DNA of 64,000 bases, from the NCBI GenBank assembly GCA_921293015.1, contig OV121088.1, forward strand, positions 33,641,645 to 33,705,644. The letters are read 5' to 3'. The notes beneath the pieces are model-generated. The model was not told the origin of the DNA and did no database searches. It saw nothing but the letters and a program-made list of their open reading frames with translations. The position numbers and the translations under genes are program-made. Positions 3,134-30,093 of this stretch are shown here, piece by piece (position 1 is the first letter of the stretch; each line of letters opens with the position of its first letter). The DNA comes from Phorcus lineatus (taxonomy: Eukaryota > Mollusca > Gastropoda > Trochida > Trochidae).

Positions 3134-6100
3134 TTAGTTTTTCAGGATTTCATAATTCGGACCCATCCTGAAGTTTGTAACCCTTTGCAGGGCATCGATG
3201 AAATTGCAGAACATTTGACGGGCTCTTCTGATTGAAAAATAATTTCTTTCATGCCGCGAAATGACATCAAGGTCTTTAAAGCTTGGATTGATAATGTCAC
3301 GTGGTACACTTATACTTGGATCCACTTCCGGTTGAAGCCTCGTCATCACGTAGTACATTTCACAGAATATTTCTATTAACTTCTGGTTAAGCGCTCGGAG
3401 TTTCCTGTCATATTCCACGGTGTCGTTCAAAGCCACATCCAGAAACACTCCGACCCGGGATAGTCTGCCAATAGCCTTGGAAATGATTGATTTCGTCTGA
3501 AAGTAATAGAACAGGATGAAATCAACGTTGTGGCATAATTTTTCAAATGACTGCGATCACGGAATTAATGATACAGTATATTCTACTAACATTAGACAGT
3601 ACAAATCTCTGCGTGTACATTTGTACCTCTTAAAATTTATATCTTCTCATTTAGCTTAATCGGTAATGACCAAAGTAGCATATATAAATCTAATAACTTA
3701 GATTAGATATATATGATATATATAGACATGTATCAGATTTATGAAATAGGCATAATCTATGTCAATTTTATAAACATATAATGCATAATGCACATTTTAT
3801 ATGCATAATGTTATTCCTATGTATACTGAAGATGATTAAAAATACACAATAAACATGAATGGTTAAAAAATTTAAACGAGAACATTTCTATATTACAAGC
3901 AATTACAATTTAAATACAAATAATTACTAAATAACAAGGTAATTCTCCACAGATACCCTTACGTTACAAACCTTTCTTGACAACTTTCAATGGTTCTGGT
4001 CCTCCTTTCACAAAGCGACCTTAACTAAGGTTAACCTTAACTCCAATGCTTTAACATTGCATCAAGGTTACCGTAAGGACTTACGATCACCTCAAGGCTT
4101 TGTGAAAGGAGACCCAGGTTAATTTCACGATATAACTTATCTTAACTGTATAAGTACTTTTGCTATCTTATCACGTATGACTGTATGGCAAACGTGCGTT
4201 TTTCGTATTGTTTAAAACCGGTATGGTACATACAGCGATTATGATTATTTAACTCTCTCATTGATCTTAAAGACATTTATTAATATTTAAAGTCACGAGG
4301 ATTATGTATTAATCTATCTATCTATCTATCGATGTTTCGATAGAGGATTTTTTGATAAGTGAAAATTAAGTATACAAATTATACTAATTAACTGGAACTT
4401 TGTAGAGGCGAATAGAGCAAAACGTTTTCAATTCATTTATATTCGTTTGCATCGATTTTCATTATTAGTGTTGTCAGTCACATCATTTGATTTAATCATT
4501 ACATGAAGAAAATGAGAAATAGGTTAATAGAATAAACTGTATTCCAGATACAGATTCACCTCTACATCATGTGACAAAATTAACTTGGTAAAAACAATAT
4601 GGTTGCTTAGTGGTTTTGAAAATTTTGGTAAATGCATATCACCTGAATCAATATAAGAAGGCCCCCTCGTGACATTCTCCCTTATTCAGAATCATCTCTA
4701 AAAGTTACCTTCAATTTTCCTTTCTTAATCTTTTCTACCGGTATAGTATCTAATGGAGATGTTCCCGTTTCGTGAACAGCTTCGCCCGATCTGTTTAATT
4801 CGTAGGCCTGTAAAAGAATGAAAATGCTGTTTATTTCATGTTAAGGCTTATACATTGTATGATACTAGTAAATGAATAAGTATGCTTTATTTCTTAACAA
4901 GTTTTGCACCCAAACTAAAATATTAATGTGACACCTTCAAACTGTCAGGAGATATTGTCTGAATGAATTATTGCCCACATAAAAATGATTTTGGACTGAA
5001 AATTTGAAAATGATAACAAACATTTGAAGCAATGATGAGAGTTATTAAATGGTACAAAAAGTTTACATAAAATCTGCGCTATAACAACTAGATCAAGGTA
5101 AGGGTGAACATGAGATAATCTCTATATTGTTGTTCGTTGTTCTTAGAAATCTTGTGTGTACTACAGTAGTAGACATCGAGGTAGTTCATAACTCGATTGT
5201 GGCATTATGGAAGTACATTAAAGGTTATATCTTAAATTTTGCATGATATAATAAATCAGGTAAACGTGAAGAACCATTCACAAGGACACATGTGACCATT
5301 GCCTGATGTATTTCCTTAAAAGACGAATGTATGATTTTGGTAATATATTTTTAGAAGAATTGTTGATACACTCGTTCGAAGTGCCTATTCTAGGTTTTCT
5401 TAAACACAGAAGAGAAGATAATTGAGAGAAAAATGTTGGTTCCTTAGATATACAACTTCCTTACTCTGAGAAGGTCACTTTTACAAAAATGATACCAAAA
5501 TAGTTTTCGAACAAGTGATGACGTCAGACGCTAGACTTAGTGTCCATTGAATTGCCTTCGTCATCTTAAATGTACTCATCAGAAAGCCAATCAAGAATGT
5601 ACAAAGCCGAGGTAAAGGCAAAACCCACCGTTTTGTGCACGAGCTCGTCACAGATTCTGACTGCCGTACGAGACAACAGCAGAATGAAGACGAGGGTCTC
5701 GTTGATAGGGCGGGGCTCCTCAAGGGGTGAGGGAAGGGGGGTCAGGTAGAGGGGGTCAGGTCCCGAAGGATTGCAGTCCACGCTCCACATGTCCTCATGT
5801 GAAGGACTGGATGTGTTTGTCTGGGTCAACACCAGAGGAACTTGGAAGCAGAGGAGGATGAGAACTGTAAAAGGCAAATGCAGTGTATTATTATAATGTT
5901 AAAGGTAGAGGATATTACACGAACTTCCGTGTAATACAATTTACCTAGCAAACTTTGATTTGGCATCGAATATAAAAAGATTTATTTGATCATTAACGAC
6001 TTGAAAATTGTTAATGGAATGGATTTTAATCTTTATTTACTAATCCACATATATCGAAAAAATAGCACTGAGACGAAACAGACTTTGAGTGGGATAGCGT

Positions 6101-6847
6101 CCAAGGAACAACGTCATGCCACAGCAGCAATGTATTGTGACAAGAAACCTGGAGCGCGTAATTATCATATTTGATATTTGCCTAGGCATATGAGCAAGGA
6201 CATTTACATCACATGAATAAACCCAATTACCGTGTGTGAAAACCACTATGTAGCGACAATGCCGTGAAGCAAAGCATTGCTGAAGTTACAGGTTATAAAG
6301 CATACGTCCCTCAATATCAATTTCAAATGACCTAGTTACGTGTTTATAATTTCCTGTATGAGTGCAGATACATGTATATGATTATTTTTTTGTTTTGATC
6401 TATACAATATACAATGGATTATGCTGTATTTGTTCAGTCACAGTAGGTAACTTTCCTTCAATTCCAAGTTTTACAGTGAGGGGAGGAATTCTAAAGGGAG
6501 GAATTCTCATGCTAAAGAACAATACCATTTCATCAAAAACCAAAAATAAATGTGTACAAACGTTTCCTTTCATGAAGATGTTACACACTGGCATATACAG
6601 TAGTATATATGATCACTTATCATTCATAAATGCGTTAAAATTGTATTTAACTTAAATGTCACTGACTTCCGTATTTCCAGAATGTCAACAATTCGGTTTA
6701 TAAAATAAAACATATAACGTAGGATATCTACAGAGGTGTGAGACATAGAAGTTGATGAAGCCTACAAGTCTACTCTCCTCTCGAACAACTCCCATTATGT
6801 CTATTAAACAGGTCAATAACGGCGATAATTAAAATCTTACCTTTCAT
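3134..6847 (-). CDS. Gene A: secreted helical cytokine-like protein
   Basis: Four-exon gene: 6847-6841, 5864-5629, 4807-4709, 3496-3134 (minus), with canonical GT-AG borders. Intron phases are 1, 0, 0; introns are 976, 821 and 1212 bp. Predicted precursor 234 aa. The first exon contributes only ATG AAA G. The signal peptide (MKVLILLCFQVPLVLT) is completed in exon 2. Exon 2 carries W-x3-C (WSVDC), N-glycosylation sites NTS and NET, and a helix around PRPINETLVFILL. Exon 3 is 99 nt. Exon 4 has LSRVGVFLD, IEIFCEM, VPRDII and ERNYFSIRR, which align with genes B, C and D. It is the most diverged member, with a C-terminal extension and four mature cysteines. Likely an extracellular ligand; receptor unknown. 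I do not recognise a named family. Splicing is inferred by comparison with the paralogues. Confidence 0.82.
3995..4119. repeat. Small hairpin element in gene A intron 3
   Basis: TCCTTTCACAAAGC at 4003-4016 pairs perfectly with GCTTTGTGAAAGGA at 4097-4110, and flanking bases extend the pairing imperfectly. The 80-bp interior is rich in TTAAGGTTAACC-like words. This looks like a short palindromic MITE inserted in the intron; its orientation cannot be set. Confidence 0.7.
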
Positions 6848-6909
6848 TGCGAATTTCTACAGTTACTCTCAGGGTTATCATATTTCAATGCAGATACAAC
6901 AGCGCGGGG

Positions 6910-6915
6910 CTTATA
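6910..6915 (-). promoter_or_regulatory. TATA-like box of gene A
   Basis: TATAAG on the minus strand, inside CTTATAAGCCCCGCGC, lies 63 nt upstream of the gene A start codon. This predicts transcription from about 6885 and a 5' UTR near 40 nt. Each of the four paralogues has a TATA element at a similar distance. Confidence 0.5.
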
Positions 6916-7581
6916 AGACACTAGACATACAGGATGTAGATGTTTTGCACTTGTGACGTAAACATAGGATTTATTGGGAGTGTCCCTGACAGGTGAATGA
7001 ATAAGATGACAAATTATACGAGCCATAATCAGCTTCCATTCAGCATACTTTCCTCTTGCATTTATTACATATTTTAAAGTAGTAAGTGTCATTGTTATTA
7101 ACTTGGAACTTGGACAATCAGAGGAATTGAGGTCATTAATGATCATATGCGTATTTTTCAGCAAACTTTCCTCAGAAATGTATTGTAAAATCTAGGATAG
7201 ATTTAAGTGACGACATTGTACTTTAAGAGGGGTCATGACTGACAAATGTAGGAGTAGGATGATAGATTTTCTTAATGCATCATAAATTTCCATTCAGCAA
7301 AATTTTCTCCGAATTTTATCTTTAAGAATTTAGAATTGTAAATGGGGTTATACCTAAAGACCGTATGTAGGAGTGAATCTATAAATTATCAAGAATGAGA
7401 ATTTTCCATTGAGCCACAATTTGCATTTTAAGTGGGTTTCCAACGAATGATAGCATGGAAAAAGATAATCAAATATCCGAAAGATGAATAATTTATATAA
7501 ATCTAATATTTCCCAGAATAGTCTTGAAAATGTTATATGATGCATAAGTACAGTGGGTTGCATATATCTTTACCTGTAGTG

Positions 7582-7755
7582 AATGCATTCAGATTGCAAT
7601 CTGATCGCAATCGAATGCGTTCAGATTGCACTCTGATCGCGCCTGACCGCGATCAGACAGTATTTTTATGGCAAATGACCGCAAAAATACCGCAAAAACC
7701 GCAAAATAACCGCAAAAAACCGCGAAATAACCGCAAAAAACCGCAAATGAACGCG
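7582..7755. repeat. GAATGC/GATCGC and CCGCAAAA short repeats
   Basis: 7582-7660 contains GAATGCATTC, GATCGC and TTCAGATTGC words in partly palindromic order. 7678-7755 follows with about six copies of a CCGCAAAAA-type unit of roughly 9-16 bp. The first part is related to the repeat at 12845-12960. Open frames across it (rich in R/N/K on plus, LRLF on minus) are by-products of the repeat. Confidence 0.75.
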
Positions 7756-8444
7756 AAGCAGCGGCAATCTAAATCAAGAGTCGGTAGATAGATTCTTTCA
7801 ATAAGAAGAGGTTTTGTGTTAATTACGCATTCGATGCTCTGAATGTTTCGTGAGGTGAGTTGGTGTTTAACTCTGAATGTTTCGTGCAAATAGGCTTTAT
7901 ATTATTTGAAATACAGAAGCAACGTTTTAGGTACACCAAGGACTGTAGATAGAGAGTCACTAGAGAGGTAATATACAGGCTCACTCGCCTTTGATATCAT
8001 AAATTACTTTATAATGTTAAACTGACATACTGATGAAATACAAATTTTATAATTTAAATACCCTAAAGTATTTTGTCCAGTATAGTATGTTTCATGAAAA
8101 ATATTTATAATATCCTTTATTTCTTATAGAAATTTTAATCATTCCAATCTATTTGCCTATTTTCACCAAATGCAAAATACATTTGTTCTTCACTTATTAT
8201 TTTTTAAATATTGAAAATAAAACTGAGATTATATACTAATACTTAAGTTACATGGAGTAGATTTGTTGTTACATGAATGTCCATTTCTTCCTTCGTGGCT
8301 TTAGATATGTCAATAATTCATCTCTGCACTCATAAGTTCAGTGATAAAACAACGACAAGCAACCATTCCACCATTAGTTATTTTAATCACTTTGTTTTCT
8401 TTGAAAAAATTATATTTTAATATTACAATGTATTTATATGCCCC

Positions 8445-8575
8445 TTTGTGTCTCATAGGCCGTTCGTTTTTGTTTTGATGTTGTTTAATTAACAAGTCTG
8501 TTGATATGTAATGTGATGTACAACATGTGACACATTAATGAATTATATTTCTTTTCTTCTTATTCTTCATCTACT
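8445..8575 (+). mobile_element. LINE 3'-end fragment
   Basis: The sequence contains TTGTGTCTCATAGGCC, then ACATGTGACACATTAATGAA, then a TTC-rich tail. The same order (TTGTGTCTCGTAAGCC ... CATGTGACACATCAATAAA, then TTC repeats) forms the end of the full-length LINE at 62830-62956 and recurs at 56715-56846. This is probably a 5'-truncated copy; its left border cannot be placed. Confidence 0.6.
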
Positions 8576-10796
8576 AGTACACAAACCAACCCCTCACACA
8601 GTGGTAAAAGCGGCGCAAATCAGGAAATTTCATCGAAACTTAAAACAATTCAACTCATCTATAGTTATACTTTTCACGTTTGCATTTAACTTCTTAACTT
8701 AAATCATACTTCACTTAACTTAAACTTATTTCCTTATTTATCTAAAGAACAATGAAACACTTGGTAAATAGGAGTAGATACTTTCAACAATTGGCTACTA
8801 GTTCTAAGTTTTATGTCAAGATTTAAGATTAGGCTTTTGCATTCTCAGTTTCCCCTGAATACACATAACCCCGAATACACAAGCAATTAATCAATTAGCC
8901 CAAAAGGGTCTCGACCGCAGCAACTTTTTGCACCTTTGATCAACAGCCGAGTACCACCCGTTATTTGCCACCGATTGTCAACTTCTAATTCGACAAGGTA
9001 TAACTAGGTGTTATTTGACTCATGCACGATTCGCTAAGCGCTCATATAGTAAGTAGTATATTAGCATCAAGGCTTTAGAATGTGGAAATGAAGAAATGGT
9101 CTTTCAAGAGTTAGCGGAACTCAGATGAAGAAATCACAAAAGAGACAGTCAAACGTAGAGTAGAAGTCTATGAAGTGACAATTAATAGATATCTAACATA
9201 TTTATCTCAATTTTAAAAAGTCACCGAAAAAATAGCAGTTAATGCCAAAAAAACGCGAATAATGATGATATTGCTAGTGTTACTTGAAGTCAACGAGGTT
9301 TTGCTCGTAAGATCTACCTATGCTATCTATATGTTTACTGTGTTTTCGGTCAAGGTAGGCGTGAATTCTGAAACTCGTCATCTGAATCACAACATTCAGC
9401 AACATTACTTTATATTACGTTGACAACCACAAAATAATATAAAAGCTGTTTTTATCTACGTTTGATATTATTTTAAAGAATGTTTTTAATTCATTCTTTT
9501 AGATCTCTATTTGAAAGTGGCATTTTAAATGTTTATAAAAGAATATGAAATTCATTTTAACATTTTCGTCAACATTGCCTTTATTTCCGCGAGCCTTTAT
9601 TAACATCTAATCTTTCTAGAATATAATACCATTAAAAGTAATGTATTAGCATTCAACGCATTGCAAAGCTTTACAACATCGCACACGATACATTTATATA
9701 TTTATTAAGCTGGAGTTTGGCTGTGAAATGTATTTTTACTGTAATATGCCTTGTTCTCTAAACGAGTTTCTTGTTTTGTGGGTTAGCTCCGCTGAGAGTC
9801 GAAAATGGGCGCTCTGTTATATTGCATAGTCTTTTGCATATTGATGAGCGAATGTAACTTTTATCTAAATGAACAAACCTTTTGAATAAGATTTGTATTC
9901 TTAGTGATATGGACGAAGTTAATTTTATCTTGGCTTCCCCAGAGCTTTCGTAATATTATTAAAAAACGTACTGCAAACCTGTACCATAATGTATAATATA
10001 GATTAACTTCTATTCTGCACTGTGTTAACTCTACAACACTGCAGTCACTTCGTTAACCCTATCAATACTTTTTCAACGTGGATCTGTACCTTTATATCTG
10101 TCAATTTAAGATACACATCTTTACCAAAACAACGCAAATCTTCGATCGATCAATACTTAGTTAAACAATGGTCAATAAAGGTTGTTAAATCGCATGCTTA
10201 TTGTAAAGTCTTTTGAACTATATGCTTCAAACACACGATCATCTGAAGTACCTGAGACACAATACACAGAGCTTGTTATTTTGTCGTCTGAAAGTCGGCC
10301 GGTAAGTCTAGACGTTGCACATGTTAGGTACGCGTAGCTGCATAATAAACATAGACTATCATCCGACTGTGACAATAAACAGGTTCGTTTATATATCATT
10401 GAAAATATATTACTTTTTTATCGAGCGTATTCCATTAACGGGGTATAAAAGGTTGATCTAAACCTTAATGAAAGTGTATATTGTCACGACTTTATGCGCA
10501 TTTTTTTTCGATAGATTATATATGTACATAGATATAATGATAATCAGCGTAACCAATTAAGCTTCAAATGATACCTCTCTGTAACAATAATGTTTGTTTG
10601 CTAAAATAATAGTGTCTACAAAATTCGTGCCTCTCCGTGCCTTAAGTGGCAGTTTCTTTAATCCATGTATCCCGAAGCAAAAACCGTCATTAAGCTAATG
10701 AAATAAAATTGAATAGATTTCCTGTTATGTCTACTGTTTCATTAATTGCATTAGATAGATGTCAATGAAGCATACATACATTTCCGTATTACAAGT
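8576..10796. other. No gene seen between repeats
   Basis: AT-rich sequence without supportable exons. The first 65 bases (CACACAGTGGTAAAAGCGG...) resemble 11950-12015, suggesting a degraded dispersed repeat. Confidence 0.4.
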
Positions 10797-11638
10797 AAAG
10801 TTTTTGTTTGGAGTGATAAATATGCTGTTTTAAAGAAACGGAATTGGAATTTCAGAGTTCACGTCAAATTTTCTGATATTGGGCTTCAACATTTTAATAA
10901 CATAAAGGTTAATTATCACATTCCCTTTGTTGTTTCTGAAGTAACCAGTAATTTATTTCATCGTTTTATCTTTATTTGGAAAGAATCTATTTCTAATGTA
11001 AATGCCCAAACTTGTAAAGGAGGTAATAAATTAAGAACTTATGCTACTTTTAAAAATGAATATCGCCCGGAATTGTATGTACTATGTCAAATGCCTCGCG
11101 CTTATAGACGTGCCTTAGCACTTTTTAGATGTGGCGTTGCTCCTCTAAGAGTTGAAACTGGAAGATATAATTGTACTCCTTTACAGGAAAGAACATGTTT
11201 TCATTGTGAGGCTTTTATTGAAGATGAGCGGCATGTTTTATTGCACTGTCCTCTTTATTCTATTGAAAGAGTTGTCCTTTTTAGAAAATGTCAAGAATTT
11301 AATGCTACGTTTATGTCTTTTAACGAATTTGATAAGGTAATATTTTTACTGTCCAATCCACAAGTGTCTTTTAATACAGCCAAAACCTGCTATCTTATTT
11401 TAAAGCGGCGACAGGCCCTTTTATATGGTTAACTTATATTGTAAATAGTTGTATTATTTACCCTGTATTCATTTTGTTTCTTATTTTATACGTTTATTAG
11501 TCTCTCATAAATCTGTAAAGATTGGCTCAACATTTTAATTCGATTTTTTTATGCATATATTACATTGATCTTTACCTGTATTTATCATGTTGAGGTGAGA
11601 CTCAAATAAATCATCTGTCTGTCTGTCTGTCTGTCTAC
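10797..11638 (+). mobile_element. 5'-truncated LINE, ORF2 C-terminus remnant
   Basis: An open frame ending at 11432 runs back to about 10797, where an in-frame TAA occurs. Its product aligns with the C-terminal end of the ORF2 at 58970-62377: NKLRTYATFKNEY versus NKLRTYRMFKSSP, FRCGVAPLRVETGRYN versus LRCGSLPLEIEIGRFN. A zinc knuckle C-x2-C-x8-H-x4-C follows (RTCFHCEAF...HVLLHC). After the stop come about 180 nt of 3' UTR, AATAAA, and a (CTGT)n tail at 11613-11636. It is a related but different LINE lineage from the full-length copy, which has a TTC tail. Dead on arrival by 5' truncation; the remaining frame is intact. Confidence 0.88.
11613..11636. repeat. (CTGT)n LINE tail
   Basis: Six CTGT units after CAAATAAATCAT, the 3' terminus of the truncated LINE at 10797-11638. 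Confidence 0.88.
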
Positions 11639-12844
11639 AAATAAAACACACTCACACAAACAAACAGTCAGTTAGACAGGCGGACACTGGTAGAGAGGTT
11701 TTATAATGTGAACGAATCAGACTTTAACATATATTTTATAAATGATTGAAAAATGTGAACAAATGCCCTTCAAAATCTGACCCCTGTAATGAGCAACGCG
11801 AAAATTACTTGACATGCGTTGACATAATCGTTCACATTCAAGGCATTATAATTGTTACCATTGTCTACGTTAAATTTGAATTAGAAAAAAATCATAAAAC
11901 AAAACCATTTTACCCCTAAAATCTAAACAAATCATCGATATACACCTCTCTACATCCAGTGTGCGATAACACAGTGGTGATAGCGGGACAAATCTGAAAA
12001 TTTCTTCAAAATTGAAGATAATTTAGGCCAACAATGCCTTGATGAACGAATCATTATGATTTTACAAAATCAGGTGTCTAACTTCATTTAAAGCATTGTT
12101 TGCCATTTTGATGTAAAGATTGATGTATTTCATTTATCATTAGAATGTTGAATCAGCAAATCTTAGCATAAAAACCGCTAAGAGTCGAAACATGTCTCTT
12201 CGTTGGTTTCCTTTGAAATGAAAACATTTGCAAATTGAATTCAAAATTTTGCAGTTTTCATAAACCAAGTAATCGTACGCGTATAAGGAAAGCTTACTGT
12301 GGTCTCCTCAGTAACGGTACAAAGACGGATTTACATTTTGTTATACAATCGAATGCTGATATATACCTATAAATCTATTGATTCGTCCCGCGCAATTCAT
12401 ACTCATGACGTCATCTACTTGATCGCAGCACACAAGTCATACACACACGTAAGACTGATTTAAAATGTGGAAGATTGCTAAGGATTAATGCTTGCATAGA
12501 AGATATGACTCACTAGTACTGACTTATGGTTTAAAACAATAATGATACATAATATTTGAAAACGGCAAGTACCTCTATCGTTCTTAGGCAAGAGAATATT
12601 ACAAACCTTGGATAACAAGGTTCTAAAACTTTTATAACTCTAAGTCACCAAGTGGAGTGGTACTTTCGAAATTCAATGTAATACACTTTAGTTGGCATCA
12701 GTGTTATCAATTAGAGTGAATGCTAGGTATATATACAATCCTATTGGTGTGAAACTTTTCTAAAGTAAACTAACATATCATAAGACATGTCTACAACAGA
12801 TTTGAGAAATTTTATAGAGTAACAGTCTGCGGTTGACCGCGAAC
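11639..12844. other. No gene seen; degraded dispersed repeats
   Basis: 11750-11800 resembles 13085-13135 (ATGCCCTT..AAATCTGA..). 11950-12015 resembles 8580-8645. No coding evidence on either strand. Confidence 0.35.
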
Positions 12845-12960
12845 TGAATGCATTCTGATCGCGATCGAACGCGTTCAGAATGCAATCAGATTGCGGTCGA
12901 ATGCATTCAGAATGCATTCAGATCGCGGTCGAATGCATTCAGAATGCATTCAGATCGCGG
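12845..12960. repeat. 32-bp tandem repeat of palindromic words
   Basis: About three copies of a 32-bp unit made of GAATGCATTCAGAATGCATT plus CAGATCGCGGTC; the last two are almost identical. GAATGCATTC and GATCGCGATC are each perfect palindromes. Related to 7582-7660. Confidence 0.85.
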
Positions 12961-13406
12961 TTTTCGGGTAACTAATTCTGCAAGGGTCTGTACTGGTAGG
13001 CAATTTTTCACAGCTGCACATAGAATATAATATTGAACCACCTTATGTGCAAAATTCATACTTTATTTGTCTGTCAAGTTTACATTATGTACAATGCCCT
13101 TTGAAATCTGAAATCTATAAATAGCAATGTACATGAGGTATTTTTTTAATACTGAGAGAATAAACATAAAACCTTTCAATTTTAATTGTATTTGATGTAG
13201 AAAAAGAAGTTCTCAATTCATTTCAGGAAACTGCATAAGTAACTTTAAACATATAAATGTATTGTCAATGAGAACAAGTGCCACGAAGAATACTAAATGT
13301 ATTAAGCTTAAAAGTAAATACTCGTATTCAAATAACTCATAGTTATATTCAGTTACTTATATTTCTTATATCTAATTCAATATAATATCTACATATAAAG
13401 CATTAT

Positions 13407-13553
13407 CCAAACAAAGGCATATCCTACCTTATTCGAGTAGGGACTTTTGCTATACAATCTAAAGAATGCCTGTGCGGCACTCATGCCGTATTATCAACTG
13501 TATCATGCATATATTTATCTTCAATTTTGGAGGAAATAAAGACGATCTATCTA
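13407..13553 (+). mobile_element. Short retroinsert with 38-bp target duplication
   Basis: A 147-bp segment lies between two 38-bp direct repeats (13369-13406 and 13554-13591) that differ at one base. The insert ends GAGGAAATAAAGACGATCTATCTA: a poly(A)-like signal followed by a CTAT tail, typical of a LINE or SINE 3' end. The long near-perfect direct repeats fit a target-site duplication from target-primed insertion and indicate a young event. No internal promoter boxes were recognised, so it may be a heavily truncated LINE. Confidence 0.72.
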
Positions 13554-13835
13554 TATCTAATTCAATATAATATTTACATATAAAGCATTATTATATTTCG
13601 AATGGTGAAATATGCCATTTATCGGTGAAAATAAAACCCGTATTTTCACTGAGTGAAATAAAAATGGTATTCTACTCTGTAAATGACGCAAAAATTATAT
13701 GACGTCGTCTGTGACGTCATGAAACAATTGAATGACGTCATGCAACAGCCGCGCTAGCGAAGCGTTTTAGCTTCTCCATTCATATAGTTAGGGTCATTTA
13801 CGGGGTTTTGAGAAATATAATAAATAGAACATTTT

Positions 13836-13974
13836 ACATTTCTCGTCGAATACCATGAATATCTCATCTCGTGAAGTAGAAAATCATATATTTACACTCG
13901 TGGCTACGCCACTCGTGAAAATATAAATTTCTACTTCACTCGATGAGATATCCATGATATTCGACGAGAAATGT
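13836..13974. repeat. Hairpin (foldback) element with ACTCGTG centre
   Basis: ACATTTCTCGTCGAATA at the left pairs with TATTCGACGAGAAATGT at the right. Pairing continues inwards (ATCTCAT / ATGAGAT, GAAGTAGAAA / TTTCTACTTC) to a palindromic centre ACTCGTGGCTACGCCACTCG. Arms are about 65 bp with few mismatches. It is followed by TATCCTCTGTTC. The upstream 200 bases contain three TGACGTCA-type words and may belong to the same composite element. Confidence 0.85.
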
Positions 13975-15006: not shown

Positions 15007-17365
15007 CTAGCTTGATAGATAAACTGTTAACTGCTCAGCCATTTGTGAAAATATAACTCTTGTATCTCTCATTATCAGATAGTCTCTTTGATAACGATCG
15101 CTGACTGATTCAACGCTTCTGTAAATCGATGGTAATACGTCACGTGATATCCTCCGAGTTGGCCTATGACCTCGGCTATGTAATAGGATATGTATCTGGC
15201 ATAAAATCTCACGATACTTCGTCTTAAGATCTCGTTGTTCCTCTGTACGGATGTATATTGGATCGTCAAAGACCTGTTCCAGGAATACTCCAAGACGAGA
15301 AATCTGGTCATTCTGGTACGCCAACAATTCACGAATCTGAAGCGATTGAAAGAAATGGTGTACAAGATGTCACGTCATGTTACATAAAATCCAAATTGCA
15401 ACAAATATATAATATATACAACAATACTCAATATTCTTAGTAGCCCCAAGGCCATTATTGGACCTTCAATTATGGTGCCTGGTAATGTTGACACGCCCAC
15501 TCGAAACAAACGTGCAACGACATTGCACAGGAATTGTAATACATTGAAGATGTTCCAAAACATGTTTTAAAAGTTCAGTATGACCAAACAAGGGCGTGAA
15601 GATCATGATGTTACACCGTACACCCACCATCTTCCCCAACACCGCTTTAAGTTGCATCAGTCTTGATCAACTGATGATTTAAATCTTGCTACTTACACGT
15701 CTAGACCTATAGCAGCAACCTAGACGACACAGAAAAGTATGGGAAATGCGAAGTATATGCGTGGGAAGAGGCACACTTACATTCCTTGCTGCTGCATATG
15801 ATAACCTTGTTGGTATAGGAAACCCCAATAAAGGATCTACTCCATCAAGAAAATCTGCAGTCGAATCCCCAATCCATCTTATCTGAAATATTATCAAATG
15901 AAGTGAAATCGTGATAGATAAATATTTTAAAAAAATAAATGAATTTACTAATGAATGCTCCCTTTCAAAAGATGTAGTGTCTTATAAATAGTGTCTGATA
16001 AAGGGTTCCCTTAAAAAGTAACGTTTAGGGGGAAATAATTTGTTGCTAAACAAGCTCAAAGATTTTGGCCAGGTCGAAAGTTGATATTTGAAAGATGTCA
16101 CAGCTGAGAGAATAATTATTTGAAATGAGTCTAATTCTAATTTAATGTTCCACTCCCAGATTCGTTTTGTGACAGATAAAGCCAGCACACCTGTGAGATT
16201 TGACAATTTTATAATGTGTCCATACAGGCCTATAAAAGGTGAAGTAGGACTGATTCCTTGCCAAACCACAACCCATGATCAGTCTCAAAGCTGGTAAATA
16301 TTACGAGTGAGTGAGTGAGTAATTGTTTGGCATTTTTCAGCGAGTTTTTCGAACATTGTTTTCAATGTTAGAAGTCTTTATGGATAGGTTCAATGCACCT
16401 ACTATTCTGTTCTGAATCTCATAACACAGACGTCGTCCTGTTGCAAGCTTGACGCCGAGAAGTTGAAGTTCGGTAGAGATACCCCGATGTCTGTGAATGA
16501 AAATTGAGCCAACTCGGGAAGACACCCTCCCATCACATGGCCGCTCCCACAGGGCGCCATCCTCACCCTGGCCCATAGTCACCAGGGATAGGAACACTAA
16601 CATAGAACATTGAGAGCATTCTTAATAATTATATTGATGGTAATAATAACAATGTATTCGCAATTTGTTATTAACACTTACACAAAGAGGGTCATTTTAA
16701 CATTCTACTTATCCACATGCTTTCGGTGTTAAAAGTAATGATTGAACTATTATTAGTCGGTGCTTTCTTTTCCTATTTTGCTTCACGAGTTTCGACTATA
16801 AGTTACATTTGTACATAGCCTTTTCAGGCTTAACAGAAAATTAAGTAAAAAAGGTAAGAGGTGTTTTGCTATTTAAGAGATCTGCCATTCATATGAAACG
16901 TGATTGTCATTGAGAAATCTCAAGTACAATGCACATTCTTATTTCTGAAAATATCTTTCACAAGATCTCTTATTCAAAAGTGACTGACAAGAACAAGTTC
17001 GTTTACGTTTTCGGGTCGAGTCCCGTGCGGGATTAGTACTAACATCCTCAGATGTGCATGTTTATATTTTTGAAATAAAAGTTTAAATTAGAAAAAAAAA
17101 ATCCTCAGAGTCAGGCAGCCAGAGTGTTGTAATAATAAAGCTGTATTACAAAAAAAGTTTTTGTTATTTACAAAAAATGAGTATCCTGAAGGAGTTTAAA
17201 ACATAAATTATTCAACCTGACATTAAATTTCTTTTAAAAATGTAGGTTCTGTAAAACCAGAAAAAGGATCGTGAAGAAACCTGTAAGTATCGTTATCTGA
17301 AATGTCTTGCAATAAACTATTAAAAAAGTAGACTTGCCTGATATTATAATCTTTCCGAAGAACAT
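15007..17365 (-). CDS. Gene D: secreted helical cytokine-like protein
   Basis: Four exons: 17365-17338, 16596-16403, 15882-15781, 15336-15007 (minus); intron phases 1, 0, 0; introns 741, 520 and 444 bp. Predicted precursor 217 aa. Signal peptide MFFGKIIISVFLSLVTMGQG spans exons 1-2. Exon 2 has W-x3-C (LWERPCDG) and a helix through ISTELQLLGVKLATGRRL. Exon 3 (102 nt) shares I-x-D-x2-A-x2-L and GFP with gene C. Exon 4 has QISRLGVFLEQ, YREILCQI, ISRDVLP and RDYLIMRD, matching B and C. The first donor is G|GCAAGT, a GC-AG intron; all others are GT-AG. An upstream in-frame ATG at 17431 lies only a few bases past the TATA box and so should precede the transcription start; this is why 17365 is chosen. 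No N-glycosylation sequon seen. Function inferred as a secreted ligand. Confidence 0.82.
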
Positions 17366-17444: not shown

Positions 17445-17450
17445 CAAGTT

Positions 17451-20400: not shown

Positions 20401-20830
20401 CTCAAACAGGTTAATCAACACATTATAGTTTTACATACAGGCTATGTCGAAACACATAACGTAAACACAGTAAATTTTGTAGTATTTTGTACCTTAGGGC
20501 TTAGGATATTGTGTTTGGGACATCCTCCAATAAATTCATACTATTGCCATGTGCCTCACTGCAGAGGAATGGTATTGGTAAAAAGGGCTGTGTTATGATT
20601 TTAGTAAATGTTTAAATCGACATTTTGTATGCAACCATTATTACTCTTCCGTTGAAGACACCTCCGTTTAATAAATCTACAAAGTTTTTGCACATTGTGT
20701 AATTATAACATCGCGTGTTGATTGACGTCACAATCGTTAAGCATGACGTCACAATGTTAGCGGCGCGGTGACAATGGTATTCTCGGCGATTTTCATGCTT
20801 TTTCTTTGACATAATTAAAAAATAAATAAA
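17451..20830. other. No gene seen between D and B, left part
   Basis: AT-rich sequence without supportable exons on either strand. 18370-18480 (GGTATTATAAAAACGTGCCC, then CCGTTCGTCCGTT and TGTCCGGATCATAAACTTG) has the composition of a dispersed repeat. TGACGTCACAAT occurs twice at about 20723 and 20743. Confidence 0.35.
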
Positions 20831-20952
20831 ATACTAAACTCAGTCCCGTATAATTACATTTTTATGAAACTCGTGAATGGTATTGGTATCTAACTCGCTT
20901 TCGCTCACACTCGTTTCATAAATATGTTATTAAACGGGACATCGTTTAGTAT
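20831..20952. repeat. ATACTAAAC hairpin element, copy 2
   Basis: ATACTAAAC at 20831 pairs with GTTTAGTAT ending at 20952. Inside, GTCCCGT pairs with ACGGGAC, and ATTTTTATGAAACTCGTGAA with CTCGTTTCATAAATAT, around a centre ACTCGCTTTCGCTCACACTC. The outer flank TTCTCTA matches the family terminus AGAGAATACTAAAC. The middle differs from copy 1, so this is a subfamily. Confidence 0.8.
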
Positions 20953-21789
20953 TCTCTATTTATGTTATGTAGGACCGTTCTATGTTCTACGGGGATGTCA
21001 CGACTGTTGCGGCAGAGTAATAATACCCGTAAATAAGATGTATAACTTTGGCTTCTTAGAATGTACAAAGTATCAGCTTGTTTGATGACTATGAATCAAT
21101 ATGTAAATTAAGTGAAATCATTTGAACATAATTTAGCCTATACGGTAATTCAGATCCGTTAAAAGTCAAATATCAATTATAAAAAAATTGTTGGTTTCAA
21201 TAAAGCCATATATATATGTATGTGTGTGACGTATACTATATGCTAGAAGCATGTATGTATGTATTTGCATATATCAGCACGTCATCATGTCAAACCTCAC
21301 TTGTGTCATGTGAATATCGTATGTTAAAATGTTAGCACTTATTTCTCATCAGCCTGTCTTATTATCACGCGGCATGTAACAACATATTCGCGTTACAACA
21401 TTCCTCTTCCTGGACAGATTGCGTTATGTCTGTATAAGTCATAAATTCGTATCATAAGTTCACTTCTGACCAAAACATTGGCAAGACCTGAAAAATGTGT
21501 CATCATTTTGTGTACATACTTTTTTAGTCATCGCGTATTGCAATTAATTTCAGACGTTATATTGTTGAAAGATTAATTATGTATCAGTTTTGTCACGTCG
21601 CCCGGATGTTATTACGCATATTACAAGCTTAATGATTTCTCCTTATAGAATATTTATGTCATATCATGTGAATATTTTATTGAACAGGGAGACGGTTACG
21701 TTCATGAATTACATTACTGCTAATGTTGTCAGATATGTCACAATAGATCGAACGATTTTCTTTATGTTACCACCACTGGACTCAATACC

Positions 21790-22090
21790 TTATCGTGGTG
21801 TGGTGGTTTGCGTGCTTCAGGGACCCTGAGAGCTATGCCAACTGGAGCTAACAGGCTCCTGGTAGGGACACCCAAGCTGGACAGGTCGACGGGTAGAAGC
21901 CAGACTAAATTTGAGTCCTTCTAAAACCTGCTTTCTATCTCTCACTATGCCTTTCATTCCGTCTTTTCCCTCATCCTGTCGATCCCTTTCTCCCTGATCT
22001 GTCGACTCTCTTTTGGATGCTTGTCATCCACGTGTTTAATAACTGAAATATTGTTCAAAGCACGTTAAACCCCAACTCACTCACTCACTC
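21790..22090 (+). repeat. Dispersed repeat ending GTTAAACCCCAACTCACTC
   Basis: Contains AACAGGCTCCTGGTAGGGAC, CCAAGCTGGACAGGTCGACG and a pyrimidine-rich middle. It ends ATTGTTCAAAGCACGTTAAA, CCCCAACTCACTCACTCACT. The last ~30 bases match the 3' end of the SINE at 32170-32430, so both families share a 3' domain. Left boundary uncertain. Confidence 0.6.
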
Positions 22091-22634
22091 TTTATGTTAT
22101 TAATCGTGTGGACTTGCATTTTGATACCCTATATGTGTTGTGTTCATATTATTATAGAATAAGATAAAGAAAGGCATGTGACCTTATCATCACGAAAACA
22201 TTTTAAAGAAAGAAGAAATGGAGAATTATAAATTTTCATCAATGTTGTATTATTATTACATAAAACACTAACGAACGACCACTGCGTAATAGAGGGTACC
22301 AAAAATGCCGGATTTCTCCATTTTTATGTTACTTTAACAACACATTTCCAAACATTAATTTCAAAGGGGAATTTTAGAAATTGCTACACGGAAGAAAAAA
22401 AATTTGTCAAAGAAGATAACCACTATTAGGCAGGAAAGACATGTCTAGAACTTACGGTAAAACGTTATGAATGAATTTTTCGTCGGCGTTTCTCCACGAA
22501 GTAACGCCTCTATAGCTTGTGTTGGATTTACCAGTTGACCAACACCATATTTAGACATCCTGGAAAATTAGCGAAACAATTAAATTAACAAGCTAATTAA
22601 CTAAAAATAACTTTAGTTCCGCAATTTGTCCGTC

Positions 22635-22642
22635 TATAAAAG
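22635..22642 (+). promoter_or_regulatory. TATA box of gene B
   Basis: TATAAAAG, 68 nt upstream of the ATG at 22703; predicted start of transcription near 22665 and a 5' UTR of about 38 nt, CT- and A-rich. Confidence 0.7.
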
Positions 22643-22702
22643 AGCCCTGCCAGCACGACCAACTCCAACTAACCATCTTCTCTCTCCAAGTCAGTTTAAG
22701 TC

Positions 22703-24761
22703 ATGGCTAGTTTATTTGTCTTCATTATTTCAACAGGTGGGTTTGACTACTTTAGTATCACTGTCCTCACTATTTTTACAACATCCTTCCAAATACAGTG
22801 TTTGATATAAGGAACGGGTTATTTCATATATCTTTACAGAATGTTTTAAACATCAGAAAACAATGATAATGAAAATAGATAGATGATATAATATTAAAAA
22901 ATTGATTTTGATTATCAGTAAGAATTAATGTAGACCGTGAAAGCGCGGCCTAACGATCCTTTTGAGACAATATGGCAAAAAGATAACAGTGTAAATTTCA
23001 CGATAAAGACATCGAGGTTCAGAACATCGTGTTGCTCTTATGAATGCCACTTCTAATTGCCCATTAAAGACCTGTTCCGAAGACGAGGTTTTGCAATAAT
23101 TAAATTTTGATGGATGTATCAGAAGCAAACGCGAATAGGTGATACATGAATATGTTTTAAAGTAAGTGTTGTTATTACTGCTGATATTTTTTAGTTTGTA
23201 TTGATAGAAATATTTTTTTCTTCACAGTTTTTTATTCCTGGTTTGATTTCAACTTTGTGAAATCCGCTCCGATGCCAACAGGAAACGGCCGCTGGGTTAA
23301 TCCGTGCGGCGGTAGCGGTCCCGTCCAAAAAACGTCACTTATTCCAATCGAGGTGCTGCCCCCGAGGCCAATCAGCGAAGACCTTGTTTCTCTGGATCTT
23401 ATGTTGCAAACCGCATCAAGCGTTGCTCAGGAATTGTCATACATAATCGTAAGTATTTACACATTTTAAGGTTATTAACAAGAAGTGACGTTAATAGTTA
23501 TAAGAACAATAGACATCCCTGTATAAACATGATTCAGTTGTGATAAAAACAAGACGCTTTTGAGTCAATGTCTGCTCCTTCATTAGGTAAAACGGGCGGA
23601 TTTTCAAAATGTTGTTCATATACCTTCAACGACATAGGGATGCATTTATTCGCAGGAACTATGTTGTATAGTCTTAGCAAATGCGTTGTTGTCTAGAAAT
23701 ATTTCGAATTCATAGCATATATTCGTAATTTGGAGCAGTGAATTGATTTCAGAATATATTGATTTTTTTCATAAGAATAGATTTTTCCAGGGTTACGGTT
23801 TGATGAAATCGTTGAGATTCAAGTGTTTTAAAAATTACATTACTTGTGTTTGAAATAACAATTGCTCAAGATCGGTTGCTGGTAAGAGAACAAGCTTTAC
23901 CGTTTCCGTAATACCACTGTCTGAAACAAAATATTTTCAATCGTGAAAGAAAATGTGAATAAGCATACAATTTCTTCTTTTGATATCTAAATTCGTATTT
24001 CCTTTAACAGAAAACTAGAATATGTGGCGACGCAGGAAATGCGCTTGAACAGAGAAAACATGTTCTGGACGGATTTCCTGACATCAATGCAACATATACA
24101 CCAGGAATAAATGTCAGTTTGTACTAGAATGTTTCATTTTCTCTTTCTGTATTAAATTGATTAACTCATTTAATTATTTAATCATTTGTATGTTTTTCTT
24201 GTTTTCTATGAAATATCGGAAATTTCAATATTGTGTAATTTGCATATCTCATTAGAATTTTCTCACTTATTATTGATGACCCCTACCATTTTTGAGGACA
24301 CTAAATTTTATAAACAAATCAACGCCATCTGTGTCCAACTGTCCATTAGCTAATTTTCAGTACAAATAAAAACTAACCAATTCAAACATGCTATTCACAA
24401 TTTTTTTAAATTTCAGGTCGAGGAGATGCTTATGAGAGAATTCGAAAGAATTTCCAAAATCGGTGTATTTCTGGAGCAAGCAGCCATTGATACGTACGAC
24501 TATACGAAGAAAGTACGAGACCTGGAGGACGAGTACGTAGAGATACTGTGTCAGATGGATCTGACTCTGGATTTTCTCAACCAGGAAGTGACGTCACATG
24601 TGTCACGTGATATAATGCCTGACTATATGCGCCGTATTACCAGTATATCGGTCATAGATCAAAGAAATTATCTAATAATCAGAGATACGCTTATAATATT
24701 TGATATTGTCAGAAAGGGTATCTCTCAATACATAGAGGATACTAAACGACCTTCCATTTAA
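22703..24761 (+). CDS. Gene B: secreted helical cytokine-like protein
   Basis: Four exons: 22703-22736, 23228-23448, 24011-24112, 24417-24761; phases 1, 0, 0; introns 491, 562 and 304 bp. Predicted precursor 233 aa. Signal peptide begins MASLFVFIIST and continues in exon 2 to about FVKSA. Mature chain: GRWVNPCGG (W-x3-C), helix A over EDLVSLDLMLQTASSVAQEL continuing into exon 3, a loop with sequon NAT, then exon 4 with ISKIGVFLEQA (helix B), a helix holding VEILCQM (C), the loop VSRDIMPDYM, and a last helix with QRNYLIIRDTLIIF (D). Very close to gene C (about 90% identical in shared exon 4 residues). The last nine residues (IEDTKRPSI) and the stop lie in a hairpin repeat, so its C-terminus differs from C. 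Likely an extracellular ligand; receptor unknown. Confidence 0.87.
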
Positions 24762-24840
24762 TACTATTTTTATAAAACGAGTTAATGATTAAACGAGCGA
24801 AAGCGAATTTGATACCAAATCATTAACGAGAAATAAGATA
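24737..24840. repeat. ATACTAAAC hairpin element, copy 3, overlapping gene B stop
   Basis: AGAGGATACTAAACGACCTT matches the terminus of copies 1 and 2. TTTAATACTATTTTTATAAA, then CGAGTTAATGATTAAACGAG, then GATACCAAATCATTAACGAG follow, with the central GAGCGAAAGCG. The right terminal arm seems to be missing or diverged (ends near AGAAATAAGATAG). The left arm is read in frame as the C-terminal codons and the stop codon of gene B. Confidence 0.78.
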
Positions 24841-24849
24841 GCAATAACA

Positions 24850-27800
24850 CTGCCCGTTACCCATTGACGTATGTCATGGCTATTTTATTATATTTATGAC
24901 TGTCATTCGTCATACGAGCAAACGTTCATTCATTATATAACACCGTCATATTTTCCCCTTTCATTTTATTAAGTTATTGAAATTTACATTTCGTTTATTA
25001 CCAGTTAGGTTTTTTTATATCTATCTCTGTCAATTTCAACCACAGGTTGTTCATGATATCATTATGGTTTGATTCAAACATTAATCGCATTTGTGTTCTT
25101 TTTCAAGGGTAAATTATTTAATATGGGAACTGATAAATTGTGATATGTGACATTGGTTGAATATGTAAACTGATGAATGATGAATTGTTCCATTCGTTGA
25201 ATATGGGAACTTTTTACGTTAGAACTGAAATCTCACCCAGTAAACAATTATGTAGTGAACATTAAATAGACTTTTAACAGCCAACATCAAATTCTAACAT
25301 TTACAATTCCTAGAAGGGAGACTTGAATGATCTCAGATAGCCATATATGTATAATATTTATAAACGTGATCCAGTCGAAAATTGGAATTTATACTATATT
25401 TTTAAGTTTAATGAATACTTGATGAATTATAATACTCATTTTTTAATATTGCTCTACCTGAGGGTAAAAAATCGTTTGAGTGATATTGATATAAATTATT
25501 ATTTGTTTAGATTTTCATAATATTTGGAAAATCCGGTTGGTTATGTTTTTAATACTCAAACCGAACTGTGTTGTACATTTTTTACATACAGTTTTGTGTT
25601 ATCAGTTGTGTGTATATTGCCAAACTTTATTGAATTTATGAATCATATTATAATAAAACATTAAAAATAGCGGTTGTTTTGTTTGCTGTGGGAAAGACCT
25701 ACTTATTGGTAATTTTTTTCTCAAGATGTAGATCACCAACTTGACTTCTGTGAATAGAGAGTGTCAGACAGACAGACAGAAAAATGTGTTTCTCAACCAA
25801 AAATGGTGGTACATGAGAATATGAATAACAGGTATCAATAAAATATATTCAGTTACATGGCCAGTGACTGGACATTGTCACTGATTATTACTTCAGCAAT
25901 TTAAACAATGCAATAAGAAAGGACTTCAAATTCTGTAAGTGCTAAGTATATAATTTCTTTAATGAAACATGCTTATGTAGATCACCGGTTGTCTTGGACA
26001 TGCTTGGGGTTTTTTTTAACATCTGAGTCAATGTATAATCAACATGTTCACATATTTGAATACTATTTAAGTTAAATATATAAGAAAAACTTTGTTTACA
26101 ATAGCTTCTTATTTTGAAGAGACAGAATATTTTAAGCACCTAAACACCTCGTTTGTCATCAATCGATGACCTCACCTCGTTTGTCATCACTCGATGACCT
26201 CATAATGCATTTGCATCACTAAGAACACTGATGACAATGCTTTGACTTCACAATGTTGATGACGCCACAGTGCTTTGATGTCATAATGATGATGACGTCA
26301 CAATGCTAAGACCTAATTGTTCAAGATGCAAATGTAAGTTTATAGTGAGAAACATGCTTTATTACCGAAAATTGACGAAGCATTGATTTGAATGATGATA
26401 AAATCTCACCCTGCATTGTGTCTTCTGATATTATCCCAAAAATGGATGATTTGTTAGGATGGATTGTTTACCACAAATGTTTACATTAAGCTACTTTATA
26501 ATCTATTTATTTATTTATTTATTTATTACTTTTCTCTAAAATTAATTCATCTTCTTTAGACTCCAAATCATAACGTTATAATTATAGTATTATGAGACAG
26601 CATTATGTATATGCAGTCAGCATGACATTGCATATGTGTGATCATGACGTGTCGTGTCATTATCATGTGTTGACATACTAAAATGAAATATTAATGCACT
26701 GTCTTTTTTTTATCGACATCACATATCATCGACGGCGTCAAATTAATCTAACGGACAGAATACTTGAGTGAATATGCTAATCTCTTGCTTTTCGATCACT
26801 TACATATCAACACAGGGGGAAAAGGATATCGAATGTTTGCAACATTTTCCAAAATCACTATAAAGCATGTCAAGAGACTTGACTTTTTGTGTAAGACGCT
26901 TTCCTCTATATGTATTTGAAGTACAGTATTTCTTCCAAATGAAGAAATATCGTCCATGAAACTTGTTTTCTTATGAACTCTAATGTATGTAATCCATGTC
27001 ACTTCCATTGACATGAAAATGCGGTTAATATTTTAATGATGACACAAGGTCTAATAACAAGTATGTCCCAGCCAACCGGTGGCATTGGCGTTTCAAATTT
27101 ATTGAAGAACCACCCACTATTCACATAAAAAATATTTGTTGTTGTCCTTGAAATTCAGAAAATGAAACCTTTAAAAGAAGAAAACCACACAGATATATTC
27201 AGATATATTTATTATAAAAAGCATCATAAAAATCTATAAAAAATATATAAAATATTTTGAACATGATAATTGATAACAACAATTGGTATGTTTACATCAC
27301 AGTAAGATTCGTGTATAAAAACACATAAATACCAATATATCCTGATGTGTTAAACTTTGCATACGCTCACATACTAAAATGGAATGTTCTTTTTTGCTGT
27401 ACATTCAAATAGGACATGTAAATATGAAAATAAAAGTAATGAATATAACATTTATGTAGACGCATTATAACTCTTGGTAAATTCTATAGATGTAACGATC
27501 TCGAGATAGCATCTCTTGGACGTTACTTTGAGACATTTTGATTTCACAGGTAGCGTTCAACTTTAATACCGAGGGAAAACAATAAATATTACAAGTTAAA
27601 GAAAAAGATTATAAACATATAACAGAATACGTTACTTGTAGTGTCACACATGTTTTGTTACACACGTGTAAACATGTGTTTCGTTGATACATATTTTGAT
27701 TCCATACTTCGTTATTTAGGGAATTCAATTTAACTTTGATTTACAGGAACTTGCTCGTTGTATCTGTTAGTAAAAGTGAAAAAGATGAATTCACATTCGT

Positions 27801-28209
27801 AATGTCAAACTTCAGCATGACTTCACAATGTTCATGATAAATTCAGTTTTAACGTCATATTCTCAATATCACAACTCATCATTCATCATATGATATATTC
27901 AAGTAATTTACCCTTAACGTCACATCATAATACTGACATAGCATACAAAGTCTACAAATGTGGTGAAGGGGGAAATACACAGTATGTATAAACGTCATAC
28001 GTATCGCATGATAATGTCATGAACAATTGTGGTATACCTTAATAACTTAAATGAAGTGGAGCAACAAATATGTAGCTCAATAAATAGATGAGATGTAAAT
28101 AATTTTGAAAAATAATGAATAATAAATAAAACAGGAATGAGACACATTATCAAATAAATTAGGCATGTCACTGGGTAAAAGGCAGTGATATACACGTTGC
28201 TGTGGTTCT
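24850..28209. other. Intergenic region between convergent genes B and C
   Basis: No gene seen. Contains AATAAAA near 25654 (possible distal poly(A) signal for B), a (TTTA)n run at about 26501-26527, a cluster of TGACGTCA-like words at 26160-26310, and AT-rich sequence. A short CAGA run lies at about 25767-25781. Confidence 0.4.
26150..26315. repeat. Degenerate GATGAC / TGACGTCACAATG repeat cluster
   Basis: Two copies of CACCTCGTTTGTCATCA plus CGATGACCTCA, then irregular copies of GATGACxTCACAATGCT. Similar clusters occur at 20720-20760, 31130-31180, 36285-36330 and 50110-50165. Confidence 0.65.
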
Positions 28210-30093
28210 TTATAGGTTGTGTTCTTGCTTGTATTGAGAAATACCCGTTTTCACCATATCAAATATTATTAGGGTATCCCTGACAATTAGATAATTTCTT
28301 TGATCTATTACCGAGATACTGGTAATACGGCGCATATAGTCAGGCATTATGTCACGTGACACAGGTGACGTCACTTCCTGGTTGAGAGAATCCAGAGTCA
28401 GATCCATCTGACACAGTATCTCTACGTATTCGTCCTCCAGGTCTCGTACTTTCTTCGTATAGTCGTACGTATCAATGGCTGCTTGCTCCAGAAATACGCC
28501 GATCTTGGAGATTCTTTCGAATTCTCCCAATAGCATGGCTTCGATCTGAAATAAAACATATATATAAGTAATTGCATGGAAATTGTACAGGTATGTAGCC
28601 GCTACCAATGTACACAATATTAGCTTATTATCCACAAAGATGTATCGTCTTGATAGGTGAGTGTAATAAATTATAAAAACTTAACAAATGTAGATGTACT
28701 TATCATTTTGAAACAACTACAAAATAACAGTTTCAGGGTAAAACTTAATATAAACTTTAATTTCGTAAAAATATCAATGAATACGATAAATGTCGGCATG
28801 ACCAAGTTCAACTATTGATGAAATTGTATGGATAATAAAATGTTAATTGTTTTCATGTGAATCAATTATTTTCAATTTTGAATGACAAATGAGAAAAGTT
28901 GGAGTAAAACTTACAGTTATCCCTGGTGTATATGTTAAATTGACGCCAGGAAACCCGTCCAGTACGTGTTCTCTCTTTTCAAGTTCATTTGCTACGCCAT
29001 CAGAAATTCTTGTTCTCTGTGGATAAAAGATGTAATGTGACGAAAAGGGTTGGAAACTGGATAACATGAATTTCGGAACAAGAGATACAACATCAGTTGA
29101 TATGATTAGCCCTAAAGGTTATAAATATAAATCACATGTATATCATTATTATATATGATCATCATTATTAGTTTCCAATATCATTATTATACATTAAAGT
29201 TGGATAATTACACAAAGTACACGTCTTCTTGTCTTTATGTTATTTGTTATAACAGGCCTGAAGAATTCGTGTCATGATAAATGAACATAGACCCATTTCT
29301 AAATATGTCATCATAATTATTCAAAAGAGAGAAAACTTGATGGAAAGGAATGGAAGTGACATTGATGAATTGTTGGGGCTGAATAGAACGGGCTTGAAAT
29401 TCAATCAACACCCTTTTCATAATTTACATAATGCTCAATTAATAACATTTTATCTTTTGGTTTACTTACGATAATGTGTGATAACTCCTGAGCCACGCTG
29501 GAGGCGGTTTGCAACATGAGATCCAGAGAAACAAGGTCTTCTGTTATTGGTCTGGAGGGCGGAGTCTGAACAGGAATGAATGACATTTCTGGGATGGGAT
29601 CGCTACCGCCGCACGGATTTACCCATCGACCGTCGCCAGTTGGCAGTACTGGAGCGGATTTCACGAGTGCGATGTTTACACAGGAATATAAAACTGTAAG
29701 GCAAAAGAAATAAGTCAGTCAATACGAATCCGAACAAATGTGAGCTGTTTCAATAGTTTTAAATAATGATGTCCATTTTTGCTAAATTTAGAGGCAATTT
29801 TCTCGTCTGTGACAAGTAAATTGTTTTTGAGTTTCCCATCGAAGGGAGGTTACTCATGTACGTTGGAAACTTTTGAACAATATTGAAAGAGTTTTCTTCA
29901 AATTAAAAGAAGTACAATCATTATCCAGTTTTTTCGCTAATAACTTATAATAAGAAATAACTCGTAGAATTTAAAGTTAAATTGCAGGCTAAATTTTCGC
30001 CATGGAGAAATATATTAGATCACTTGTAAAGTAAACTTCGTTAATAGTATTGTACCAACCTGTTGAAATAACGAACACAAATATTCTATCCAT
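28210..30093 (-). CDS. Gene C: secreted helical cytokine-like protein
   Basis: Four exons: 30093-30060, 29693-29470, 29016-28915, 28545-28210 (minus); phases 1, 0, 0; introns 366, 453 and 369 bp; all GT-AG. Predicted precursor 231 aa. Signal peptide MDRIFVFVIST continues as VLYSCVNIALVKSA. Mature chain: GRWVNPCGG, helix A EDLVSLDLMLQTASSVAQEL, an exon 3 segment with sequon NLT, helices B and C in exon 4 (ISKIGVFLEQA, VEILCQM), VSRDIMPDYM, and a last helix QRNYLIVRDTLIIF. The mature chain has only two cysteines, the one in W-x3-C and the one in EILC, so a single disulfide between the N-terminal segment and the third helix is the simplest reading. It lies tail-to-tail with gene B, 3.4 kb apart. 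Likely a secreted ligand; function inferred. Confidence 0.87.

Follow-up and report, generated by a model that had tools for sequence, protein, structure and literature searches.

A stretch of 64,000 nucleotides from the gastropod Phorcus lineatus (assembly GCA_921293015.1, contig OV121088.1, positions 33,641,645 to 33,705,644 of the forward strand; hereafter the window) contains four related genes, termed A, D, B and C. Their products probably form a new vetigastropod family of secreted cytokines, of the long-chain four-helix type represented by IL-6, IL-11 and CNTF. The four genes are a real gene family and their likeness is beyond chance. In tblastn comparisons within the window, A matches exon 4 of B at an E-value of 1e-10, and D matches exon 4 of C at 2e-18 and that of B at 3e-18; with B and C as queries, A and D are recovered in turn. 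Judged from structural models, the family is akin to IL-6-type cytokines by fold; by sequence it belongs to none of their named families.

The long-chain cytokine plan, which a sequence-only reading had proposed for these proteins, is supported by AlphaFold2 predictions for two abalone relatives, P0002 and P0004, that are 57% identical to each other. Each prediction used an alignment of 14 rows: six proteins from abalone, plus exons 2 and 4 of A–D as eight contiguous pieces. The helix limits agree in both models (residues 61–90, extended by a short helix at 92–99; 120–144; 149–172; and 198–227 or 196–227), and the middle parts of the helices reach a predicted local distance difference test score (pLDDT) of 77–95 in averages over ten-residue blocks. 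The first loop spans 20 residues after the short 92–99 helix, the second turn has 4 and the third loop has about 25, including a short helix. Upon superposition, both models display up-up-down-down topology, and all four helices superpose on IL-11 and IL-6, with IL-11 fitting at 2.3 Å over 164 residues. The models thus support the arrangement typical of long-chain class I cytokines, in which four long helices run up-up-down-down and the first and third connections are long. Moreover, to judge by their titles, the 50 Protein Data Bank (PDB) entries listed by VIA for each model are all cytokines of the long-chain class I type, and Z is at least 14 through rank 50 for both. The structure-search matches listed for the two models are nearly all cytokines and span residues 55–230; two Foldseek matches (Prone8) are unrelated. 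Neither a different confident fold nor a strong match to an unrelated secreted family, the two outcomes named beforehand as speaking against a cytokine, was encountered, and no Pfam family scored above its cut-off.

The relatives used for these models came from sequence searches. With B as the query against 5.77 billion proteins, six clusters were found at E-values up to 10, all from abalone and 44–55% identical to B. They derive from Haliotis rubra and H. rufescens (two each), H. cracherodii and H. asinina, and each is annotated as uncharacterized. A ten-sequence alignment used as the query recovered the same six proteins among 2660 candidates, whereas residues 110–234 of A recovered no relative from the same 5.77 billion proteins. 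In the protein searches with B and with the ten-sequence alignment, the family is seen only in vetigastropods. The two H. rufescens proteins, P0003 and P0004, share one contig of 6,967,830 bases (LOC numbers 124113408 and 124113411); the family is therefore probably clustered in abalone too. Among viral contigs, 40 stretches fitted a pattern, and none encodes a relative.

Conservation was assessed in an alignment of 11 sequences, comprising A–D, a fifth snail gene (E, described below) and the six abalone proteins. In P0002 numbering, 13 columns are invariant: W36, C40, P108, S132, V136, F137, L138, D144, C164, R183, D184, R202 and Y204. The motifs singled out earlier are real: the invariant columns take in W-x3-C, the cysteine of helix C, the RD pair of the third loop and the R-x-Y that belongs to the last helix. 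Because C40 and C164 are the sole invariant cysteines of the alignment, they suggest a tether between the N-terminal segment and helix C. In the first model, R202, Y204 and R208 (the last in 10 of the 11 sequences) lie within helix D, four to ten residues from its first residue. In cytokines of the CNTF/LIF type a receptor contact lies where helix D begins, and both this region and the third loop carry receptor contacts in those of the IL-6 type.

Introns 2 and 3 fall at the ends of predicted helices. In B, C, A, D and E, intron 2 falls at residues 86, 86, 86, 85 and 83, where helix A ends, and intron 3 at residues 119, 119, 119, 118 and 119, the residue preceding helix B. In A, B, C and E, the intron that interrupts the putative signal peptide is phase 1 and the later ones are phase 0. 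The same arrangement characterizes vertebrate growth hormone, EPO and IL-6 genes; no text on this pattern appears among the literature matches listed. Fish type I interferon genes are described, in an excerpt of PMC4929537, as having four phase-0 introns.

Several observations weigh against assigning the family to the cytokines. No link to any named cytokine was found at the level of protein sequence or profile in Pfam, the PDB or the 5.77 billion proteins, in keeping with the caution of the sequence-only reading, which had claimed no such homology. A Pfam scan of A–D at E-values up to 10 returned only DTX3L_a-b (0.06) and DUF1029 (0.92), both below the cut-off, and no cytokine family even at an E-value of 10. 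The best row of the PDB profile search was a SNAP25 fusion (E-value 0.056), with no named cytokine found. By sequence, then, A–D are not assignable to the IL-6, LIF/OSM or CNTF families, whose curated cut-offs they do not reach. The structural evidence has its own weaknesses. The fold was read from abalone relatives 44–55% identical to B, rather than from the spliced proteins of the window; the alignments were shallow, with 8 of their 14 rows being single exons; and the mean pLDDT was moderate, at 67.1 for P0002 and 70.9 for P0004 (predicted template modelling scores, pTM, of 0.64 and 0.68), with the five models per job spread over 46.5–67.1 and 43.5–70.9. Residues before 57 and stretches of the loops have pLDDT below 50, and the disulfide remains a guess because the W-x3-C segment lacks a reliable position in the models. 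Finally, the best Foldseek E-values were 6.5e-3 and 5.7e-3, with none below 0.001.

Such shallow alignments, together with the moderate pLDDT and pTM and the spread between models, are reasons to suspect that AlphaFold2 had simply completed a set of amphipathic helices into the bundle it remembers best, the true arrangement being different. This seems very improbable, given that two queries 57% identical yielded the same helix limits, that introns map to helix ends and that Z is still at least 14 at rank 50. It is just as improbable that the proteins are class II helical cytokines of the interferon/IL-10 type, kin to the oyster protein CgIFNLP. A mollusc interferon-like protein has indeed been described (excerpts of PMC8218723 and PMC9756803), and the viral fold search returned several viral IL-10 homologues with weak E-values. 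However, a long first loop together with four long helices is in line with the plan of long-chain class I cytokines, and none of the 50 PDB entries listed per model is a class II cytokine, the list being filled by IL-6-type, G-CSF and prolactin-type proteins (a family missing from the entries listed is not thereby excluded).

A more serious alternative, though still an unlikely one, is that the long-chain fold arose convergently in proteins with another task, such as antimicrobials, egg-coat or gamete proteins, pheromones or mucus effectors, which engage no class I receptor. Fold alone does not establish function, and a family confined to vetigastropods in the searches, diverging fast in a tandem cluster, resembles many reproductive and defence proteins. 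Yet unrelated helical bundles are nearly absent from the structure matches listed for the two models, which are almost entirely cytokines, and the conserved positions include, besides those of the core, residues of a surface type in the third loop and where helix D begins. A cytokine family remains the preferred reading.

The gene models on which this reading rests were obtained by cutting the exons of A–D by script at GT-AG borders. Their coding exon sets agree with the positions proposed before, and all introns placed have GT-AG ends. Gene A, on the minus strand, opens with an exon of only 7 nucleotides (6841..6847; ATGAAAG, ending in phase 1), which is hence its least certain exon. Its exon 2 (5629..5864) encodes the remaining putative signal peptide, W-x3-C and most of helix A; exon 3 (4709..4807) completes that helix and provides the first long loop; exon 4 (3134..3496) supplies helices B, C and D, the third loop and the stop codon. 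Gene B is on the plus strand. Its exon 1 (22703..22736) encodes the start of the signal peptide and ends in phase 1, and is followed by exon 2 with W-x3-C and helix A (23228..23448), exon 3 (24011..24112) and exon 4 with helices B, C and D (24417..24761). The exons of gene C, on the minus strand, lie at 30060..30093 (start of the signal peptide, ending in phase 1), 29470..29693, 28915..29016 and 28210..28545. For gene D, also on the minus strand, exon 2 (16403..16596), with W-x3-C and helix A, is in frame provided that its opening phase is 1, and is followed by exon 3 (15781..15882) and exon 4 (15007..15336).

A, B and C share the intron phases 1-0-0, and the two later introns of D are phase 0. 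The proposed four-exon layout holds for A, B and C, whose complete reading frames of 234, 233 and 231 amino acids fit the 217–234 claimed for the precursors. For D it is not confirmed: two upstream scans found no exon 1 candidate combining a good donor with a signal-like peptide, and the claimed 217 residues are likewise unconfirmed, the frame amounting to 208 amino acids from exon 2 on, plus any contribution of exon 1. Alternatively, D may start at an in-frame ATG at the beginning of exon 2 (open reading frame, ORF, 16337–16603). The putative signal peptides of A, B, C and E were judged by hydrophobicity alone; the best 12-residue mean within the first 30 residues is 2.71 for A, 2.43 for B, 2.28 for C and 0.31 for the part of D that could be read, and the N-terminus of E is likewise hydrophobic. 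Minisatellite arrays built from a 40-bp unit lie a short way downstream of gene A, at window positions 697–975 and 2128–2912, with 7 and 17.5 copies plus a row of 3.5 copies. Elsewhere in the window, a retrotransposon-like ORF pair (57941–62377) includes a 1135-amino-acid ORF with a reverse transcriptase domain (RVT_1, E-value 2.2e-38); a 119-amino-acid ORF at 11073–11432, which has no Pfam match, resembles by eye the C-terminal part of that protein.

Over 230 codons, B and C share 76.1% identity, and their nonsynonymous (dN) and synonymous (dS) divergence is 0.126 and 0.431 by NG86, and 0.135 and 0.353 by YN00. Since dN is below dS, both genes are under purifying selection. Exon 4 is their best-kept part (85.6% identical residues, dN 0.077, dS 0.326), exons 1 to 3 being less conserved. 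A and D are 22–33% identical to the other copies over aligned codons, and synonymous sites in all pairs other than B/C are saturated or not estimable.

The cluster extends beyond the window. A six-frame search of the genome (957.8 Mb, 74 contigs) with exon 4 of B at E-values up to 0.001 found five places, all on contig C13, which correspond to A, B, C, D and gene E, located 15 kb past the window. The exons of E (C13 33724292-33724304, 33722483-33722715, 33721915-33722025 and 33720689-33721036, minus strand; 13, 233, 111 and 348 nucleotides) have phases 1-0-0 and encode 234 amino acids, including W-x3-C. A local search then covered 304 kb, comprising the window with 110 kb to its left and 130 kb to its right, up to 33,835,640. 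Among its 5285 ORFs, an exon-4 profile built from A–E and abalone identified three more copies, G (E-value 1.5e-11), F (3.9e-9) and H (8.5e-7), and gave I and J E-values of 0.38 and 0.78. Enlarging the profile with F, G and H brought I to 4e-4 and J to 2e-3, compared with 0.63 for the best reversed ORF used as a control. Exon 4 of J in turn matches K, M and L on the same contig at 55, 52 and 51% identity, together with two poor fragments near K and one distant match at chance level (E-value 8.9). A phase-0 acceptor precedes exon 4 in F, G, H and I. No copy scored above threshold in the 110 kb to the left of the window, and an exon-2 profile recovered only its own members, A–E, with no exon 2 of F–M below an E-value of 0.37.

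The firm count is eight exon-4 copies (A–H), five of which have most or all of their exons assembled. J–M have phase-0 borders in three coding exons and a start codon just past an acceptor, the end of exon 3 in J being uncertain, and carry a motif like RNYIVMKD. A profile-profile comparison of A–E and abalone with J–M gave a probability of 0.75% (E-value 0.075), no better than the 1.46% (E-value 0.035) of one of five column-shuffled control alignments and little above the 0.41% of the reversed alignment. J–M are accordingly rejected for now as certain members, their score being at control level, and retained as tentative ones, given their place in the same contig stretch, their phase-0 introns and the RNYIVMKD-like motif; as the comparison fails to tie J–M to A–E, I–M are all kept tentative. 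Outside the window, eight or nine additional certain or probable copies (F, E, H, G, I, K, L, M and J) lie within C13 33712449-33802295, all on the minus strand. From A to J the cluster spans 157 kb, and B alone among the 13 exon-4 copies lies on the plus strand, the other 12 being on the minus strand. Broken or partial pieces resembling J–M, and longer stretches common to the regions upstream of K and L, occur at C13 33768732-33769003, 33776012-33777498 and 33787345-33788849 and point to recent duplication and decay.

If these proteins are cytokines, they would be secreted, and the cysteine of W-x3-C may be bonded to the invariant cysteine of helix C. The mature protein would fold as a long-chain helical bundle and could bridge class I receptor chains of the Domeless, gp130 or IL6R-like type on target cells, a candidate contact being the conserved R-x-Y-x3-R close to where helix D begins. 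Cross-linking of the receptors would then switch on JAK and STAT. That the copies are clustered and have diverged strongly suggests several ligands shaped by immune or reproductive pressure rather than a single housekeeping hormone. A search of this genome for IL6Ra-bind (PF09240) gave no match, which says nothing on the presence of a receptor because none of 14 control genomes matched either. For Mollusca, a survey reports IL6R-like receptors, JAK and STAT together and IL6 in vertebrates only, and its authors propose that alternative ligands must exist (excerpt of PMC13203501).

Compared with vertebrate IL-6/gp130-type cytokines (IL-11, IL-6, CNTF, LIF, CLCF1 and IL-27 p28), the snail family is distinguished by having the W-x3-C and helix-C cysteines as its sole two invariant cysteines, and it is only 7–12% identical to them in the aligned rows of the best VIA matches. 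The nearest vertebrate member is unsettled, as VIA rows within 1 Z unit count as tied. Prolactin/growth hormone and G-CSF score somewhat below IL-11 in Z and have no sequence match to the family. Among invertebrates, insect Unpaired proteins (Upd1–3) are the reported ligands of the IL-6-receptor-like Domeless. Pfam holds an Unpaired-type family, which is not listed for A–D at E-values up to 10; no direct comparison with Upd was made. Upd3 is called an ancestor of four-helix bundle cytokines in a reference title within PMC7378365, and an excerpt of PMC5385356 reports Upd2 homologues in 12 Drosophila species only. Two other proposed ligands of JAK-STAT receptors are set apart by their descriptions in the excerpts available, the oyster CgIFNLP as class II-like (PMC9756803, PMC8218723) and a shrimp IL-like C-type lectin as a lectin (PMC13203501). 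A ligand of CRLF3 in insect haemolymph, its identity open in the excerpted account, is also among the nearest published claims. The earlier remark that, Unpaired apart, helical cytokines are scarcely known from invertebrates needs one qualification, since CgIFNLP is described in an excerpt as resembling class II helical cytokines (PMC9756803). The literature matches listed on helical cytokines of molluscs or lophotrochozoans include no account of the snail family, which does not prove its absence from print.

The snail family, with orthologues in farmed abalone, provides a concrete candidate for the unassigned gastropod ligands of molluscan IL6R-like receptors. If confirmed, it would add Lophotrochozoa to the groups with documented IL-6-type ligands, and its gene structure and fold would give an anchor for the question of a single origin of class I cytokines before protostomes and deuterostomes separated. 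A broader proposal, which we advance tentatively and consider somewhat likelier to fail than to hold, is that a fast-diversifying vetigastropod locus of at least eight, perhaps 13, IL-6-class genes supplies the missing ligands of molluscan IL6R/Domeless-like receptors and shares ancestry with vertebrate IL-6-type cytokines and Unpaired. Class I cytokines would then predate the protostome-deuterostome split, and would have been missed solely through the rapid drift of their sequences.

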